Source: an uncultured bacterium
GTDB taxonomy: Bacteria; CALINM01
Direction of reading: 5' to 3'
Assembly (NCBI GenBank): GCA_938045315.1
Contig: CALINM010000240.1
Location: 1 to 6,616 of the forward strand
DNA length: 6,616 nucleotides
Shown here: positions 1 through 6,616 of the stretch, piece after piece
Numbering within the stretch: the stretch's first letter is position 1
Layout of the letters: the number at the start of each line of letters is the position of its first letter
Translations under genes and position numbers: made by a program
The notes under the pieces: generated by a model
Database searches by the model: none
What the model was told of the DNA's origin: nothing
The model's input: the letters and a program-made list of their open reading frames with translations, nothing else

Positions 1-106
1 TCCGGAAAATTCATCGAGGATTAGGTTTTGTATAACTGCTGAACATAGTTTCGAGGATATTGATTGGGTAATAGATGTTTTAAAAAAAATTTGGCTAATA
101 TTTTAA
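1..106 (+). CDS. bioF: 8-amino-7-oxononanoate synthase (BioF), C-terminal end only
   Basis: This is the last 34 codons of a gene that enters from the left; codons run in frame from base 2 to the TAA at 104-106. BioF is a PLP enzyme that condenses pimeloyl-ACP (or pimeloyl-CoA) with alanine to make 8-amino-7-oxononanoate (KAPA), the substrate line feeding BioA. The visible tail reads SSRIRFCITAEHSFEDID, which matches the conserved C-terminal pattern of BioF and related alpha-oxoamine synthases (R-x-R-x-x-x-T-A-x-H-x-x-E-D-I). Its position directly before bioA and bioD supports BioF over 2-amino-3-ketobutyrate CoA ligase, which shares the motif. The catalytic lysine and the start lie outside the window. 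The stop is 36 bases before bioA, consistent with one operon. Confidence 0.85.
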   Translation, partial: PENSSRIRFCITAEHSFEDIDWVIDVLKKIWLIF

Positions 107-119
107 AATAAAAAAAAAC

Positions 120-140
120 AAACTTCCGAAAGCGAGGTTT
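120..140 (+). promoter_or_regulatory. RNA hairpin covering the bioA Shine-Dalgarno
   Basis: AAACTTC at 120-126 pairs with GAGGTTT at 134-140 over 7 bp, including one T-G wobble. An inner C127-G132 pair closes a GAAA (GNRA-type) tetraloop, with C133 bulged. The 3' arm contains GAGG (134-137), the only credible Shine-Dalgarno for the bioA ATG at 143, with 5 bases between. The bioF stop is 13 bases before the stem, so a ribosome finishing bioF would reach and open it. This suggests translational coupling of bioA to bioF. The pairing is seen in the sequence; the function is inferred. Confidence 0.4.
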
Positions 141-142
141 CT

Positions 143-1483
143 ATGAGTTTACAGGACAAGGATAAAAAATATGTCTGGCATCCCTTTACACAAATGAAAG
201 ATTGGATACAGGAAGAACAATTAATAATTGAAAAGGGAGAGGGTAATTATTTAATTGATACAGAAGGAAATAAGTATTTTGATGGGGTATCTTCTTTATG
301 GGTTAATGTTCATGGACATTGTAACAAAAGATTGAATAGTGCATTAATAGAACAAACAAAGAAAATAGCTCACTCAACTTTATTGGGACTTTCAAACACT
401 AAGGCTATCAAACTTGCTGAGAAACTCGTAGAAATTGTTCCCCGGGGACTAACTAAAGTTTTTTATTCTGATAATGGCTCAACAGCTATTGAAGTGGCAA
501 TAAAAATGGCTTTTCAATATTTTCAACATAGGAATAAAAAAGAAAAAACAAAGTTCGCATATTTAACCCATTCATATCATGGAGATACAATTGGTGCAGT
601 GAGTGTTGGTGGGATTGAATTGTTCCATAGTATTTTCAAGCCTCTGTTATTTGATGCAATAAAGCTACCTTCCTTCTATTGTTATAGATGTGAGTTCCAT
701 CTGGAAAAAAATGTCTGTGATAGAGAATGTATAAAAAAGTCAAAAGAAATATTAGAAAAAAATAAGGATTTTATAGCAGCCCTTGTTATGGAACCCATAG
801 TACAAGGTGCTGGTGGAATGATAGTTCATCCTGAAGGAGTGTTAAAAGAACTGGCAGAATGCTGCAAAAAGCTTGGTATTTTGTTAATCCTTGATGAGGT
901 AGCGACGGGATTTGGGAGAACCGGCAAGATGTTTGCCTGTGAATATGAAAAAGTGAAACCTGATTTTTTGTGCCTTGCCAAAGGTATTACAGGTGGTTAT
1001 CTGCCCCTGGCAGCTACTATCACAACGGATGAGATATTTAGTGCCTTTTTAGGCGATTATGATGAGTTTAAGACGTTCTTCCATGGTCATACTTATACGG
1101 GCAATCCCCTTGCTTGTGCTGTTGCTTTGGAAAACTTAAAATTATTTGAGGAAGAAAAAATTTTGGAAAAGATGGAAGAAAAAATCCCCTTATTCAATAG
1201 GTGTCTAAAAATTTTTGAAGATCATAAAAATGTGGGTGAGGTAAGACAAAAGGGTTTTATGGTTGGCATTGAAATTGTAAAGGATAAAAATACGAAGGAG
1301 ATATTTCCCCTCAAAGAAAAGATCTGTATAAAGATTTCTCAAAATGCGAGGAAATATGGACTTATTACAAGACCCCTGGGTAATGTATTGGTATTGATGC
1401 CACCCCTATCATCTTCAAAGGATGAACTTTCCTTTATAACTGAAGCTTTATATAAAAGTTTGATAGATATACTTGGGGAGTAA
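143..1483 (+). CDS. bioA: Adenosylmethionine-8-amino-7-oxononanoate aminotransferase (BioA)
   Basis: BioA is a cytoplasmic PLP-dependent class III aminotransferase that converts KAPA to 7,8-diaminononanoate (DAPA), classically with S-adenosylmethionine as amino donor. The 446-residue length is normal for the family. The N-terminal WHPFTQM (12-18) is a BioA signature. Other visible elements are SSLW (50-53) at the substrate pocket, GST (112-114) for PLP phosphate binding, SYHGDT (144-149), DEVATGFGRTG (251-261) with Asp251 expected to contact the PLP pyridine nitrogen, AKG with Lys280 as the expected Schiff-base lysine, TYTGNP (317-322) and RPLGN (410-414) with the KAPA-carboxylate arginine. 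A four-cysteine insert, C180-x2-C183-x8-C192-x3-C196, is absent from the E. coli enzyme as I recall it, but similar CYRC-type inserts occur in other bacterial BioA proteins. The ATG at 143 follows GAGG by 5 bases. The amino donor (SAM or lysine) cannot be decided from sequence alone. Confidence 0.95.
   Translation: MSLQDKDKKYVWHPFTQMKDWIQEEQLIIEKGEGNYLIDTEGNKYFDGVSSLWVNVHGHCNKRLNSALIEQTKKIAHSTLLGLSNTKAIKLAEKLVEIVPRGLTKVFYSDNGSTAIEVAIKMAFQYFQHRNKKEKTKFAYLTHSYHGDTIGAVSVGGIELFHSIFKPLLFDAIKLPSFYCYRCEFHLEKNVCDRECIKKSKEILEKNKDFIAALVMEPIVQGAGGMIVHPEGVLKELAECCKKLGILLILDEVATGFGRTGKMFACEYEKVKPDFLCLAKGITGGYLPLAATITTDEIFSAFLGDYDEFKTFFHGHTYTGNPLACAVALENLKLFEEEKILEKMEEKIPLFNRCLKIFEDHKNVGEVRQKGFMVGIEIVKDKNTKEIFPLKEKICIKISQNARKYGLITRPLGNVLVLMPPLSSSKDELSFITEALYKSLIDILGE
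1475..1480 (+). promoter_or_regulatory. Ribosome binding site that fixes the bioD start
   Basis: GGGGAG lies inside the last two codons of bioA and sits 10 bases before the ATG at 1491. It selects 1491 over the in-frame TTG at 1473, which has no Shine-Dalgarno and would prepend six residues (MGSNFF) ahead of the canonical BioD N-terminus. The spacer is the bioA stop followed by a T7 run. Confidence 0.7.
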
Positions 1484-1490
1484 TTTTTTT

Positions 1491-2153
1491 ATGAAGTATT
1501 TTATAGCTGGGACTGATACAGGAGTTGGTAAAACTTATGTTACATTATCTTTGATAAAATTTTATATGTCTCAGGGATATGTTGTTAAGGCAATAAAACC
1601 GGTAGAGACTGGCTGTATAAAGAAAAATGGTAATCTATATCCTGAAGATGCTGGTAAATTTGCTGAATTAACTGGCCAAGATGTAGATGAGGTTTGTCCA
1701 TATAAGTTTGAGATACCTGTTGCTCCATATGTGGCTTCTCAACTTGAAAATGTTCATATAGATATTGATAAGATAAAAAATCATGTATTCACTGTTTATA
1801 ACAAACTAATAAAAGAGTATCCAGAAGAAAAGACCATTCTCTTTATAGAAGGTGCAGGTGGTTTAATGGTTCCTGTTACAAAGAAAATTATGATGATTGA
1901 TTTCCCGCTAATTTTAGAAACCCCAGTTATACTCGTTGCCAGATTAAGCCTTGGCACTATTAATCATACTTTACTCAGCTTAGAAGCACTTGAAAAAAGA
2001 AATATTAATGTTAGAGGTGTAATTCTTAATAATGTACAGGGTCTTAAAACAGTTGCTGAATTAACTAATGAACAATTTTTAAAAAAATATTTAAAATTGC
2101 CAATTCTATCTGTTCTAGAAAAAAACGATGAATTTAAAAGAACAATACTTTAG
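1491..2153 (+). CDS. bioD: ATP-dependent dethiobiotin synthetase (BioD)
   Basis: BioD closes the ureido ring of biotin: DAPA + CO2 + ATP gives dethiobiotin, the penultimate step of the pathway, in the cytoplasm. From the ATG at 1491 the protein is 220 residues, normal for the family. The N-terminus MKYFIAGTDTGVGKT has the P-loop at 7-15 with Lys14 and Thr15. KPVETG (36-41) is the family's DAPA and metal-site motif, APY (78-80) stands where many homologues have SPH, EGAGGLMVP (120-128) is the second strongly conserved block, and LGTINHTLLS (154-163) and LNN (179-181) follow in the usual order. All catalytic elements appear intact. The gene begins 7 bases after the bioA stop with its Shine-Dalgarno inside bioA, so the two are almost certainly co-transcribed. 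Confidence 0.95.
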   Translation: MKYFIAGTDTGVGKTYVTLSLIKFYMSQGYVVKAIKPVETGCIKKNGNLYPEDAGKFAELTGQDVDEVCPYKFEIPVAPYVASQLENVHIDIDKIKNHVFTVYNKLIKEYPEEKTILFIEGAGGLMVPVTKKIMMIDFPLILETPVILVARLSLGTINHTLLSLEALEKRNINVRGVILNNVQGLKTVAELTNEQFLKKYLKLPILSVLEKNDEFKRTIL

Positions 2154-2190
2154 TTAAAAGATTATCAAAAGTTATTGTATAATATTAATT
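2154..2190 (+). promoter_or_regulatory. Putative promoter for the tonB-like gene, possibly leaderless
   Basis: The 37-base gap after bioD holds a perfect -10 hexamer TATAAT at 2178-2183. A weak -35 candidate, TTAAAA, lies at 2154-2159 with an 18-base spacer. Transcription starting about 7 bases after the -10 would begin at the GTG start codon (2191). No Shine-Dalgarno-like purine run precedes that GTG. In an AT-rich genome a TATAAT can occur by chance; its spacing is what makes it notable. Confidence 0.4.
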
Positions 2191-3111
2191 GTGAAAAAAG
2201 ATAAAATACTTTACTGGACTTTTTTGGTATCCTTTTTAATGCATATTTTTTTATTTGGAATCATTGAGTTTTATTATAGAGTTTTGTTAAAAAGCAATTG
2301 GGTGAAAAAACAACATGAGAAAGAAAGGATATTTGAAGTTTTACCATACATACCAAAGAATCTTTCTGAAGTTTTACCTCCAAAAAGAGATGTCAGGTTT
2401 TTAGGACCCAAAGATTTAGGGGTAAAAAAAGAAAATAATGTTGCAAAAGATAGGAATACGTATGGCGATTTTCCACAACAAATTCCAGCACTACCGCAAA
2501 AACAATTAGAAGTTAAACAAAAAGATTCTGTATCAGCAAAAGATATGGAACAAGAGGCCAAGCCAATAAACATTCCAGAAAAAAAGCACGATGATAGTTT
2601 TAAGATCCCCATACAGGATAGCAAAGAGAATAAAATCGATAGGGTGGAAAATAGACAAGAAGTAGATTCCAGAACTAAGGAAGTCCCAGCTATAAATAAA
2701 CTAATACCTAAATCACACGATATATTAGCAAAATTGCCAAAAGAAGAAAGTATAAATCTTAATAGTGGTAGTGTAAAAAGTGGCAAGGAGCTCATAGTTA
2801 ATACTAAAGAGTTTAAATACTGGTCTTATCTTCAGAAGATGAAACAAAAAATAGAGATGGTCTGGGAATATCCTGAATATGCGAAACAAAGGGGTATTGG
2901 CGGACAATTAAAAATTAATTTTAGTATAGATAAAGATGGTAAGATCGAAAAGATGATGTTAGTGGACTCTTCGGGGTTAAAAGTTTTGGACGATGCTGCA
3001 ATGAAAGCTTTAAAAGATGCAAGCCCTTTCCCCCCATTCCCAGATACATGGGACATATCGCGTCTTAATATTGAAGGAACTTTTATTTATCACATCACTG
3101 TGATAAAATAA
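2191..3111 (+). CDS. tonB: TonB-family energy transducer
   Basis: TonB proteins are anchored in the inner membrane and, with ExbB-ExbD, pass proton-motive energy across the periplasm to TonB-dependent outer-membrane receptors for substrates such as siderophores, cobalamin and some vitamins. This 306-residue protein shows the three-part layout. A short basic N-terminus leads into a membrane helix (about 6-29) that contains the S14-x3-H18 pattern used for ExbB/ExbD coupling in E. coli TonB. A long polar Lys/Pro/Glu-rich spacer runs from about 34 to 205. The C-terminal TonB domain (about 210-306) contains EYPEYAKQRGIGGQLKINFS and SSGLKVLDDAAMKAL. The GTG at 2191 is chosen because no alternative start lies between it and the in-frame stop at 2155-2157, and the next Met (17) falls inside the helix. 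No Shine-Dalgarno is visible. Neither exbB nor exbD is in the window. TolA is a less likely alternative given the SxxxH motif and the C-terminal match. Confidence 0.85.
   Translation: MKKDKILYWTFLVSFLMHIFLFGIIEFYYRVLLKSNWVKKQHEKERIFEVLPYIPKNLSEVLPPKRDVRFLGPKDLGVKKENNVAKDRNTYGDFPQQIPALPQKQLEVKQKDSVSAKDMEQEAKPINIPEKKHDDSFKIPIQDSKENKIDRVENRQEVDSRTKEVPAINKLIPKSHDILAKLPKEESINLNSGSVKSGKELIVNTKEFKYWSYLQKMKQKIEMVWEYPEYAKQRGIGGQLKINFSIDKDGKIEKMMLVDSSGLKVLDDAAMKALKDASPFPPFPDTWDISRLNIEGTFIYHITVIK
3086..3107 (+). repeat. Perfect 9-bp inverted repeat at the end of the tonB gene
   Basis: TTTATCACA (3086-3094) and TGTGATAAA (3099-3107) are exact reverse complements around a 4-base TCAC loop. The repeat lies in the last codons of the tonB gene, 2 bases before its stop. 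There is no T-run after it, so it is not a classical intrinsic terminator. It could be a 3'-end mRNA-stabilising or processing hairpin, or a dyad protein-binding site. Confidence 0.5.
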
Positions 3112-3125
3112 CAAGCTTACTAAAA

Positions 3126-3131
3126 AAGGAG
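3126..3131 (+). promoter_or_regulatory. Strong ribosome binding site of murI
   Basis: AAGGAG lies 5 bases before the ATG at 3137. It is the best Shine-Dalgarno in the window and firmly fixes the murI start. By contrast, the next two genes begin at stop-start overlaps with poor Shine-Dalgarno sequences. Confidence 0.8.
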
Positions 3132-3136
3132 AAAAA

Positions 3137-3934
3137 ATGGAAAATCCTATTGGTATTTTCGATTCTGGTGTAGGTGGACTTACAGTTCTAAAGGCGATAA
3201 AAAAATTATTACCCATGGAACAGCTTATATATTTAGGTGATACAGCAAGAGTTCCATATGGCAATAAATCAAAGGAAACAATTGTTAGATACTCTATAGA
3301 AAATACAAATTTTTTAATGCAATTTAATATAAAAATGCTTGTTATTGCCTGTAATACTTCTACTGCTATGGGAATTGAAATTTTAAGGAACATGTTTCAA
3401 ATACCAATAATAGGTGTTATTGAGCCTGGTGCTAAAAGAGCAGTGGAAGTAACTAAGAATAAAAGAATTGGAGTCATAGGAACTGTTGCCACAATAAAAA
3501 GTAAAGCTTATCAGAATATTATCAAAAGTTATGAGAGAAAAGCGGTAATTTTTGCCAAGCCCTGTCCACTTTTTGTACCACTTGTTGAAGAAGGTCTTGT
3601 TAAGGGACCTGTAGCTGAAGCTGTTGTAAAAATGTATTTAGAGGGTTTTAAACTAAAAAATATAGACACACTTGTTTTAGGATGTACCCATTATCCACTC
3701 TTAAAAAATACTATTCAAAAATTTTTTGATAGAAAAATTCAAATAGTTGATTCTGCTGAAGAAACTGCTAAGATTGTAAAAGGAGTACTTGAAGAAAAGA
3801 AATTGGCAAATGTTCTGAAAAACGAAAATGATATGTTTTTTGTTACTGATGCAGCAGAAAGGTTTTTGAAAGTAGGAAAGGAAATCATGAAAGGGGCTTT
3901 GAAGGAAGTAAGAATTGCACAGGTTGGAAAATGA
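3137..3934 (+). CDS. murI: Glutamate racemase
   Basis: MurI interconverts L- and D-glutamate without cofactor, supplying D-glutamate for the peptidoglycan stem peptide in the cytoplasm. The 265-residue length is typical. Family blocks are all present: GIFDSGVGGLTVL (6-18) with Asp9 and Ser10, YLGDTARVPYGNKS (32-45), ACNTSTA (71-77) with catalytic Cys72, and LGCTHYPLL (181-189) with the second catalytic Cys183 and His185. This two-cysteine arrangement is the hallmark of the aspartate/glutamate racemase family, and the sequence around each cysteine is that of glutamate rather than aspartate racemase. The gene follows the tonB-like gene by 25 bases and overlaps the next gene by 4 bases (ATGA, 3931-3934). 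No UDP-MurNAc-Ala-binding N-terminal extension, as in E. coli MurI, is present. Confidence 0.95.
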   Translation: MENPIGIFDSGVGGLTVLKAIKKLLPMEQLIYLGDTARVPYGNKSKETIVRYSIENTNFLMQFNIKMLVIACNTSTAMGIEILRNMFQIPIIGVIEPGAKRAVEVTKNKRIGVIGTVATIKSKAYQNIIKSYERKAVIFAKPCPLFVPLVEEGLVKGPVAEAVVKMYLEGFKLKNIDTLVLGCTHYPLLKNTIQKFFDRKIQIVDSAEETAKIVKGVLEEKKLANVLKNENDMFFVTDAAERFLKVGKEIMKGALKEVRIAQVGK

Positions 3935-5253
3935 AAAATAAAAAAAAATACTTAAAGGATAAACAAAAAATAAATTTAGATATTCCTCATATTGGTAGTA
4001 TTGAAAACTTATCGTATAGTTCTTATGGTGTTTTAAAAAATAATGGGAAAGTAATATTTATTCCCTATACCGTTACTGGAGATGTTATTAGCTATAAGTT
4101 ATTGAAAGATAAAAAAACATTTAGCGAAGGTAGATTAATTGAAATTTTGAATTCTTCGCCCTATAGAAGAAAGCCACTCTGTCCATATTTTGGTATGTGT
4201 GGTGGTTGTCAATGGCAACATGTAAAATATGAATACCAGTTATTATCCAAGAAAAAAATTACTGCAGATCTTTTGGAAAGAATAGGAAAAATAGGTGCCC
4301 CCCCTGTACAAGAGATTAACGCTGCAGAATCTGAATGGAATTATAGAAACAGGGTACGTTTTCAAATAGGGGTTGCAAAAAATAATGTTAATTTTGGTTT
4401 TACGGTTTATAACACCAATGAAGTAGTAGATATAGAGACTTGTTATATTGTAAAAAAGCCAATTGCTGAGCTTTTAAAGAAAATTAGAATGTTAAAAGAA
4501 GAATTAGTAGGCTTATTTGATTTTGAAGTTTATTATTCAGAATTGGAGGATAATTACATTTTTTATGGCATTACGAGAAATCTTACTGCCTTAAATAATA
4601 TAAGAAGAATTCCAGATCTTTTTAAAGGTGGAATATTTTTTGATAAAAAATCAAAGAGAAGTCTAAATATAAAGTCACCCTTTTTGAATTATTCACTTAA
4701 AACGATTAACTCTAACTATAGTCTAAAAATTATGGCAGGGGGATTTTTACAGGCAAATCAGCTTGTAAATACAAAAATATTAAATACACTCATTGAAGAG
4801 TTTAGTAACTGCAAAGATTTAAAGTTATTAGAGCTTTATGCTGGATGTGGCAATTTTACAATTCCTCTAAGCAAATTATTTAAACATGTTGTTGCTGTTG
4901 AAGGGTCACATATATCTATACAGGCTCTTGAAGAAAATTTGTATAGAAACAATATTATAAATGTAGTAGCTATTAAAAACGATGTGAAAGAAGAAGTAAT
5001 AAAGAACTTTAACTTGAAAAAAACTTATGATGTAGTTTTCATTGATCCACCGAGAGTTGGTGCTAAAGAGATAGTAACTTACTTACCCCATTTAGGAGTT
5101 AACACAGTAGTTTATCTTTCCTGTAATCCATCTACATTGGCAAGGGATTTACAAATACTTATAAATAGCGGTTTTGCACTTGAAAAGGTTATACCCTTTG
5201 ATATGTTTCCCCAAACGTTTCACATTGAGGTTTTAGCTATTTTAAGAAGATGA
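3931..5253 (+). CDS. rlmD: 23S rRNA (uracil-5-)-methyltransferase, RlmD/RlmCD (RumA) family with Fe-S cluster
   Basis: The enzyme transfers a methyl group from SAM to C5 of a uridine in 23S rRNA: U1939 for RlmD, U747 for RlmC, or both for RlmCD; the target here is inferred only to family level. After a lysine-rich start (1-13), a TRAM-like RNA-binding domain spans about 18-75. Three cysteines, C84-x5-C90-x2-C93 (CPYFGMCGGC), with C171 as the fourth, form the expected 4Fe-4S site. The catalytic part has GGFLQANQ (270-277), the SAM loop ELYAGCGNFT (301-310), DPPR (372-375), SCNPSTLARDL (397-407) with nucleophile Cys398, and DMFPQTFHIE (424-433) with the proton-abstracting Glu433. All catalytic residues are intact and 440 residues is the usual size. 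A tRNA m5U54 role (TrmA-like) cannot be excluded. The ATG overlaps the murI stop, and an A9 run (3940-3948) lies at codons 4-6. Confidence 0.9.
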   Translation: MKNKKKYLKDKQKINLDIPHIGSIENLSYSSYGVLKNNGKVIFIPYTVTGDVISYKLLKDKKTFSEGRLIEILNSSPYRRKPLCPYFGMCGGCQWQHVKYEYQLLSKKKITADLLERIGKIGAPPVQEINAAESEWNYRNRVRFQIGVAKNNVNFGFTVYNTNEVVDIETCYIVKKPIAELLKKIRMLKEELVGLFDFEVYYSELEDNYIFYGITRNLTALNNIRRIPDLFKGGIFFDKKSKRSLNIKSPFLNYSLKTINSNYSLKIMAGGFLQANQLVNTKILNTLIEEFSNCKDLKLLELYAGCGNFTIPLSKLFKHVVAVEGSHISIQALEENLYRNNIINVVAIKNDVKEEVIKNFNLKKTYDVVFIDPPRVGAKEIVTYLPHLGVNTVVYLSCNPSTLARDLQILINSGFALEKVIPFDMFPQTFHIEVLAILRR

Positions 5254-5951
5254 AGAAAAAGATACTTTTAGTAGAAGATGATAAAAAAATTTCAAGTTTA
5301 ATTAAGGCATATTTGGAGAGTTCTGATTTTCAAGTCCATACTACATACAGTATAAACCAGACAATGGAAATTATAGAAAAAGATAAATTTGACCTTGTTA
5401 TTCTTGATCTAATGCTTCCTGATGGTATGGGTGAAACTTTAGTTGAAGATTTCTCTATGTTGAAGATACCTGTAATTATGGTAACTGCTAAAGCCTCTGA
5501 GGAAGAAAAATTAGCAGGCTTTTCCCTGGGTGCTGATGACTATATAACCAAACCTTTTAGTCCAAGGGAGTTAGTAGCGAGGGTTAAAGCGGTGTTAAAA
5601 AGATACAATTTTCAAGAGCAAGAAGAAGTTCTATCTTTTAATACTGGTAAATTACAAATCTTTTTAAAATCCTATCGAGTTTTGTTAGATAATAATGAAA
5701 TAACTTTAACACCTACGGAATTCAAAATTCTCCACTTTTTAGTAAGTCATAATGGGGGAGTTGTTACCAGAGAAGTAATAATAGATAAGGTATTTGGTTA
5801 TCAATTTGAAGGGTATGAGAGAACAGTAGATACCCATATTAAGAACTTAAGACATAAATTAAATGATGATCCTAAATCCCCTACATTTATCCAGACGGTT
5901 CATGGTTTGGGTTATCGCTTTTGTGGCATAAGGGATGAAAATAAAGATTAA
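5250..5951 (+). CDS. OmpR/PhoB-family response regulator
   Basis: This is a 233-residue two-component transcription regulator. The receiver domain (about 3-117) has the acidic pocket Glu9-Asp10-Asp11, phosphoacceptor Asp53 in LVILDLMLPDG, the switch Thr79 in VTA, and Lys101 in the KPF motif. The winged-helix DNA-binding domain (about 126-226) shows LTPTEFKIL (153-161), the recognition-helix region ERTVDTHIKNLRHKL (190-204) and the terminal wing TVHGLGYRF (216-224). All residues needed for phosphorylation are present. It starts on an ATGA overlap with the rlmD stop and its 3' end overlaps the next gene by 17 bases, the arrangement expected for a regulator followed by its own sensor kinase. The target genes and signal cannot be read from the sequence, so no specific symbol is given. 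Confidence 0.93.
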   Translation: MKKKILLVEDDKKISSLIKAYLESSDFQVHTTYSINQTMEIIEKDKFDLVILDLMLPDGMGETLVEDFSMLKIPVIMVTAKASEEEKLAGFSLGADDYITKPFSPRELVARVKAVLKRYNFQEQEEVLSFNTGKLQIFLKSYRVLLDNNEITLTPTEFKILHFLVSHNGGVVTREVIIDKVFGYQFEGYERTVDTHIKNLRHKLNDDPKSPTFIQTVHGLGYRFCGIRDENKD

Positions 5952-6616
5952 ATATAAAATTTTTTGTTTTTCTGCCTTCTTCTTTATAATTGTTTTCTTA
6001 TCTCTTCTTTATATGCGAAATCTCCTTCTATCTGATTTTAATGAATTTGTAGAGGGAGGTAAGGAAGATAAGATTTACTGGGTTACAAACTATTTAGAAC
6101 AAAGATATCAGGAAGAAAAAGACTTTAATAAAATAGCTATAGATACTGCGAGGTTAGCTTTGATAATTGGACTTGAAGTGAAAATATTTGATGATAATGA
6201 TATGCTTGTAACAGATACTCATCAGGCTTTTAATAATGCTTTACCTATTATAAAAAAGAGATTGAAGTCTTTTTATGAAAGAATAGGCAGTATAAAAAAT
6301 AAAGAGTTTATCTCCTATCCGCTTTTTAGTGGTGGAGAGGAAGGAATGCAGATAGTTTTAAAGTCTATTCCACCATTGATATTATCGCTATTTTTAGTTA
6401 ATGTATTTAGAAAATTTGGCGTGATAAGCATGATAGAGGTGGCGCTGTCACCATTGCTGGTGAAGATAGGAATACCAGGAGTAGCAGTATTACCCATAGT
6501 CAGCAAATATTTAGCAGGTGGTACAGCAATGATGGCGGTATCCCTTGATCTAGTAAACAAGGGCTTGATGAGTGCAGTAGAGCTAAATAGAATAGCAGGA
6601 TTTACAGTAAATCCCT
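5935..6616 (+). CDS. Sensor histidine kinase N-terminus fused in frame to a nucleoside-recognition (gate)-like membrane domain; 3' end outside window
   Basis: An uninterrupted frame of 227 codons runs off the right edge. Residues 1-136 look like the start of a sensor kinase: basic MKIKIKYK, one membrane helix (about 8-27), then an extracytoplasmic sensor region with KIYWVTNYLEQRY, LGLEVKIFDDNDMLVTDT and ISYPLFSGGEE. From family experience this type continues with an IGxL-like strand, a second helix, HAMP and kinase core; none is seen. From about residue 133-138 it becomes a hydrophobic protein with GMQIVLKSIPPLIL, FGVISMIEVALSPLL, GIPGVAVLPIVSKYLAGGTAMM and AVELNRIAGFTVNP, resembling the nucleoside-recognition/gate family (SpmA/SpmB, YjiG/YjiH). 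The ATG at 5935 gives the basic start before the helix and overlaps the regulator gene; AAGGG directly abuts it, which is too close for a good Shine-Dalgarno. True fusion, rearrangement scar and assembly chimera all remain possible. Confidence 0.75.
   Translation, partial: MKIKIKYKIFCFSAFFFIIVFLSLLYMRNLLLSDFNEFVEGGKEDKIYWVTNYLEQRYQEEKDFNKIAIDTARLALIIGLEVKIFDDNDMLVTDTHQAFNNALPIIKKRLKSFYERIGSIKNKEFISYPLFSGGEEGMQIVLKSIPPLILSLFLVNVFRKFGVISMIEVALSPLLVKIGIPGVAVLPIVSKYLAGGTAMMAVSLDLVNKGLMSAVELNRIAGFTVNP
6343..6616 (+). other. Nucleoside-recognition/gate-like membrane segment, downstream half of the fused frame
   Basis: This stretch encodes residues 137-227 of the fused frame. It has at least two probable membrane segments (about 144-158 and 180-203) and small-residue motifs GIPG and AGGTAMM. 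GC content over 6421-6600 is about 44%, against about 25% over 6181-6300. SpmB-like proteins carry a G-x-x-E-G element directly before an I-A-x-x-I-I-P helix start, and GGEEG followed by IVLKSIP fits that pattern, so the foreign segment may begin as early as 6331. Family assignment is by resemblance and is less certain than the change in character. Any transported substrate is unknown. Confidence 0.5.

Follow-up and report, generated by a model that had tools for sequence, protein, structure and literature searches.

Apparent in-frame fusion of a sensor kinase to a Gate-like membrane protein at a contig end, best explained as a short-read metagenome misassembly

Gene content of the contig and the frame across the junction

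The window analysed here, positions 1-6616, is an entire contig (G000:C240, 6616 bp) of a draft genome consisting of 244 contigs and 1.86 Mb. It was compared with two relatives, one of the same genus (G001) and one of the same family (G002). Since these were the only family-level genomes returned, the other 18 listed relatives sharing the domain only, the lineage of the organism has probably been sampled only sparsely.

The first bases of the contig encode the end of bioF, and from there as far as the kinase the gene order is that of contig C75 of the same-genus genome (L023). The latter is unbroken and reads bioF-bioA-bioD-tonB-murI-rumA-response regulator-histidine kinase (446 aa)-CpxP-like gene-small gene-nrdD, where all names except those of the kinase and the regulator were given by eye, tonB denoting a TonB-like protein and rumA a rumA-type methyltransferase. 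Within the genus, the biotin genes bioF-bioA-bioD, which in G001 are preceded at some distance by bioB, keep their place beside the gene of the TonB-like protein, murI, the rumA-type methyltransferase gene and the two-component system.

The features around the junction are listed in Table 1. The open frame of interest begins within the 3' end of the response regulator gene, and its first part encodes an N-terminal transmembrane helix and an extracytoplasmic sensor, as sensor histidine kinases require after their regulator.

Table 1. Features of the window around the kinase junction
Feature	Position	Strand	Basis
OmpR-type response regulator (receiver and winged helix)	5250-5951	+	Pfam Response_reg 92.9 bits, Trans_reg_C 99.0 bits; syntenic orthologue in G001
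Open frame	5935-6615	+	227 codons, open to the contig end
Partner sensor histidine kinase, N-terminal 136 codons (first transmembrane helix and extracytoplasmic sensor)	5935-6342	+	101/136 residues identical to the 446-aa kinase of G001
Crossover zone LFSGGEE	6322-6342	+	alignments; up to 21 nt that fit either parent, kinase (G001: LFSQGEE) or clostridial gate protein (LFSGGEEG)
Apparently foreign tail: middle of a clostridial-type gene for a membrane protein with two Gate domains, cut by the contig end	6343-6616	+	protein identity; no rest of the gene in G000

According to a previous sequence-only reading, this frame passes without interruption from a sensor kinase into a gate-like membrane protein near 6331-6346. 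Separate searches of the two halves agree with that description, residues 1-136 leading to a histidine kinase and the tail to a clostridial Gate protein, and the range proposed was nearly right. The same reading pointed out that a HAMP or kinase core is missing after the junction; none is indeed present in the window, although this means little in a contig that ends ~270 bases further on.

The crossover context is PLFSGGEEGMQ in the window, PLFSQGEEIG in the kinase of G001 and LLFSGGEEGMQ in the closest clostridial protein, and in the clostridial proteins generally the linker that leads into the second Gate repeat takes the form LF-x-GGEEG. The motif LFS.GEE is therefore common to both parent proteins, just as the GGEEG codons had been said to fit both families. 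The exact shared word is a deduction, with the kinase codons taken from G001 and those of the donor from an 83% identical relative. Because the shared codons stand in the same phase in both parents, the frame remains open across the junction; by chance alone, it would be retained with odds of 1-in-3.

The remainder of the kinase gene

Another contig of the same draft genome, G000:C138 (15150 bp), ends in a kinase half of 302 codons which is open at the contig end, shares 63% identity with the G001 kinase and aligns to its residues 145 to about 445. If the lengths match those of G001, the gap between residue 136 of the window and this half amounts to ~23 nt. The half scores above the profile cut-offs for HAMP (44.0 bits) and HATPase (98.2 bits) and just below that for HisKA (25.0 vs 26.9 bits), and is followed by a CpxP-like gene, a small gene and nrdD, i.e. 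the downstream genes of G001. According to our own arithmetic (244 contigs, 1.86 Mb), the chance of a suitably oriented contig end falling within ~25 bp of the junction is ~0.3%. A search for an exact word common to C240 and the C138 end revealed nothing beyond a chance 13-mer at another place, as would be expected if ~23 unseen bases lie between the two contigs, and no foreign DNA was found at the C138 end. On the grounds of synteny, we infer that the two contigs would carry the two parts of a single kinase gene.

In G001, the 446-residue kinase is intact, with HAMP, HisKA and HATPase all above the Pfam cut-off, and in G002 an intact kinase is likewise located beside its regulator; neither kinase is fused to a gate protein, which is an outcome that the sequence-only reading had named in advance as evidence of an artefact. 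Given the remainder on C138 and the intact kinase of G001 in the same gene order, the regulator of the window can hardly be regarded as having been left without its kinase, as had been proposed.

The H-box of the C138 half reads ANELRTP (SIAKFANELRTPL) in place of AHELRTP in G001 and SHEIRTP in G002, the codon of the phospho-acceptor His being replaced by an Asn codon (AAT) at 4853-4851 (-) of L022 (G000:C138), about 14852-14850 of the contig. The N, G1 and G2 motifs seem to be intact. The replacement, as read from the draft assembly, may represent a base error or indicate a kinase without autophosphorylation.

Origin of the Gate-like tail

The gate-like part occupies the final ~275-295 bases of the contig. 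From codon 130 onwards (6322-6615, LFSGGEEGMQIVLKSIPPL...), the translation shares 83% amino acid identity over 98 residues with a protein of Clostridiaceae MAG M1-B18, and 81% over 6343-6615 alone. Relatives of the tail at 62-83% identity (62-69% beyond the closest) were found in five genomes, all belonging to the same clostridial family as the best match. The matching stretch is the middle of these proteins, which, where complete, are encoded by open frames of 314-332 codons, the closest one being 320 aa long. The truncated tail of 91 aa scores 29.4 bits for Pfam Gate (PF07670) vs a cut-off of 29.6, whereas its full-length, 83% identical relative reaches 50.3 bits and shows two Gate stretches. 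The tail starts mid-gene, without a gene start and without the first Gate domain. With the whole 320-aa clostridial protein as the query, no further match was obtained in G000, and G001 and G002 gave no match at all. Apart from the tail, Gate is matched in G000 by a single protein of 655 codons on C143, which has two such matches and, judging from its layout, is probably FeoB.

The GC content of the tail is 39% and its GC3 34%, as compared with 32% and 24% for the other genes of the window, a difference in the direction expected of foreign DNA. Composition alone was rejected as proof of a foreign tail, since ~3.5% of the same-length windows within these genes reach the GC of the tail, which is high yet within their range. 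A plasmid source was not indicated either, plasmids holding only distant gate proteins, all below 60% identity. The exact junction DNA was also searched in viral contigs and was not found. The tail looks like a stray piece of clostridial DNA.

Misassembly, alternative explanations and known systems

Taken together, the kinase remainder on C138, the intact kinase of G001 in synteny, the clostridial tail and the shared motif lead us to conclude with high confidence that the fusion was produced at a contig end by misassembly of short metagenomic reads and is not a real biological feature, the assembly join having been the other option of the sequence-only reading. The kinase of the window is thus truncated at 136 codons by a misjoin. 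The true assembly path would have been broken inside the kinase gene, where up to ~21 nt encoding LFSGGEE are compatible both with the kinase and with the unrelated clostridial Gate protein, presumably of a co-occurring organism. From this point C240 would follow the clostridial branch for ~275 bases and then stop, while the true continuation of the kinase would be left over at the tip of C138. In the assembly of short metagenomic reads, the small k-mers are about 21 nt long, and a de Bruijn assembler is expected to misjoin two organisms at such a shared word. The misjoin was placed in this stretch because it is compatible with both parents and about as long as a small k-mer. As for the mechanism, colliding k-mers are inferred as the cause in preference to a chimeric library molecule.

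The latter, a hybrid formed at a short shared stretch during PCR or whole-genome amplification and seeding the contig end, would also be an artefact and a sub-case of misjoining. It would account for a join within the stretch compatible with both parents and for the shortness of the foreign part, which resembles part of a library insert. However, such hybrids are usually rare relative to the true coverage and are usually discarded by assemblers, and this origin is considered unlikely.

A genuine rearrangement in some of the cells, with clostridial DNA brought into the kinase gene by insertion or recombination while other cells kept it intact, would also produce two contigs ending at one site, as a polymorphic insertion does, and the frame has remained open. 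Such an event is very improbable, though, as the inserted part would begin mid-gene without a start or the first Gate domain, the rest of the clostridial gene is nowhere in G000, the C138 end is free of foreign DNA and the window shows no gene of a mobile element. Slightly less probable still is a subpopulation in which recombination with clostridial DNA at LFSGGEE would have given rise to a real sensor-gate fusion beside cells with an intact kinase.

The least credible option is the new architecture initially put forward, in which a Gate membrane domain would be joined to an extracytoplasmic sensor module and the regulator orphaned: apart from the 227-codon frame spanning the junction, the retention of which is expected if the shared codons are in phase, it is contradicted by the kinase remainder on C138, by the intact kinases and the lack of a gate match in both relatives, and by the absence of the fusion from every other genome searched, the examined gate relatives having, ahead of this position, a linker of the gate type instead of a kinase sensor.

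Under the misassembly reading, the real system of the organism would be an ordinary two-component one, with an extracytoplasmic sensor, a HAMP relay, a kinase core and an OmpR-type regulator. Its genes would be arranged in the order rumA-type methyltransferase, OmpR-type regulator, ~446-residue HAMP/HisKA/HATPase kinase, CpxP-like genes and anaerobic ribonucleotide reductase. The family of the kinase, together with the CpxP-like periplasmic protein encoded next door, suggests that the system may sense envelope stress.

The database entry of this MAG should accordingly be taken neither as a sensor-transporter fusion nor as an orphan regulator. More generally, a contig-end misjoin within a stretch shared by two proteins can mimic a convincing in-frame "new domain architecture", and such cases are settled by checking whether the missing half lies at the end of another contig in that genome.

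Among known systems, the kinase and its OmpR-type regulator resemble those of the BaeS/AdeS type in the overlapping kinase gene, in the TM-sensor-TM-HAMP-HisKA-HATPase layout (seen in G001) and in the CpxP-like gene downstream (in C138 and G001). The best NCBIfam match of the kinase half is BaeS_SmeS; however, the half falls far short of the BaeS/AdeS equivalog cut-offs, with 169 and 149 bits where 500 are required in each case, hence the protein is regarded as a generic BaeS/AdeS relative, not as BaeS, and is given no specific name. Unlike BaeS/AdeS kinases, the gene in the window comprises the first 136 codons only. The tail (6322-6615) corresponds to the second Gate repeat of the 320-aa clostridial protein together with the linker ahead of it and is in this respect similar to PRK10519-/YlbJ-like membrane proteins with two Gate domains (PF07670), yet it contains only 98 of the ~320 residues and lacks both the start and the C-terminus as well as the first Gate repeat. 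The structure as a whole, with its position at a contig end, a crossover inside a gene where ~21 nt are shared and the true continuation on another contig end, corresponds to what is generally known of chimeric metagenome contig ends.
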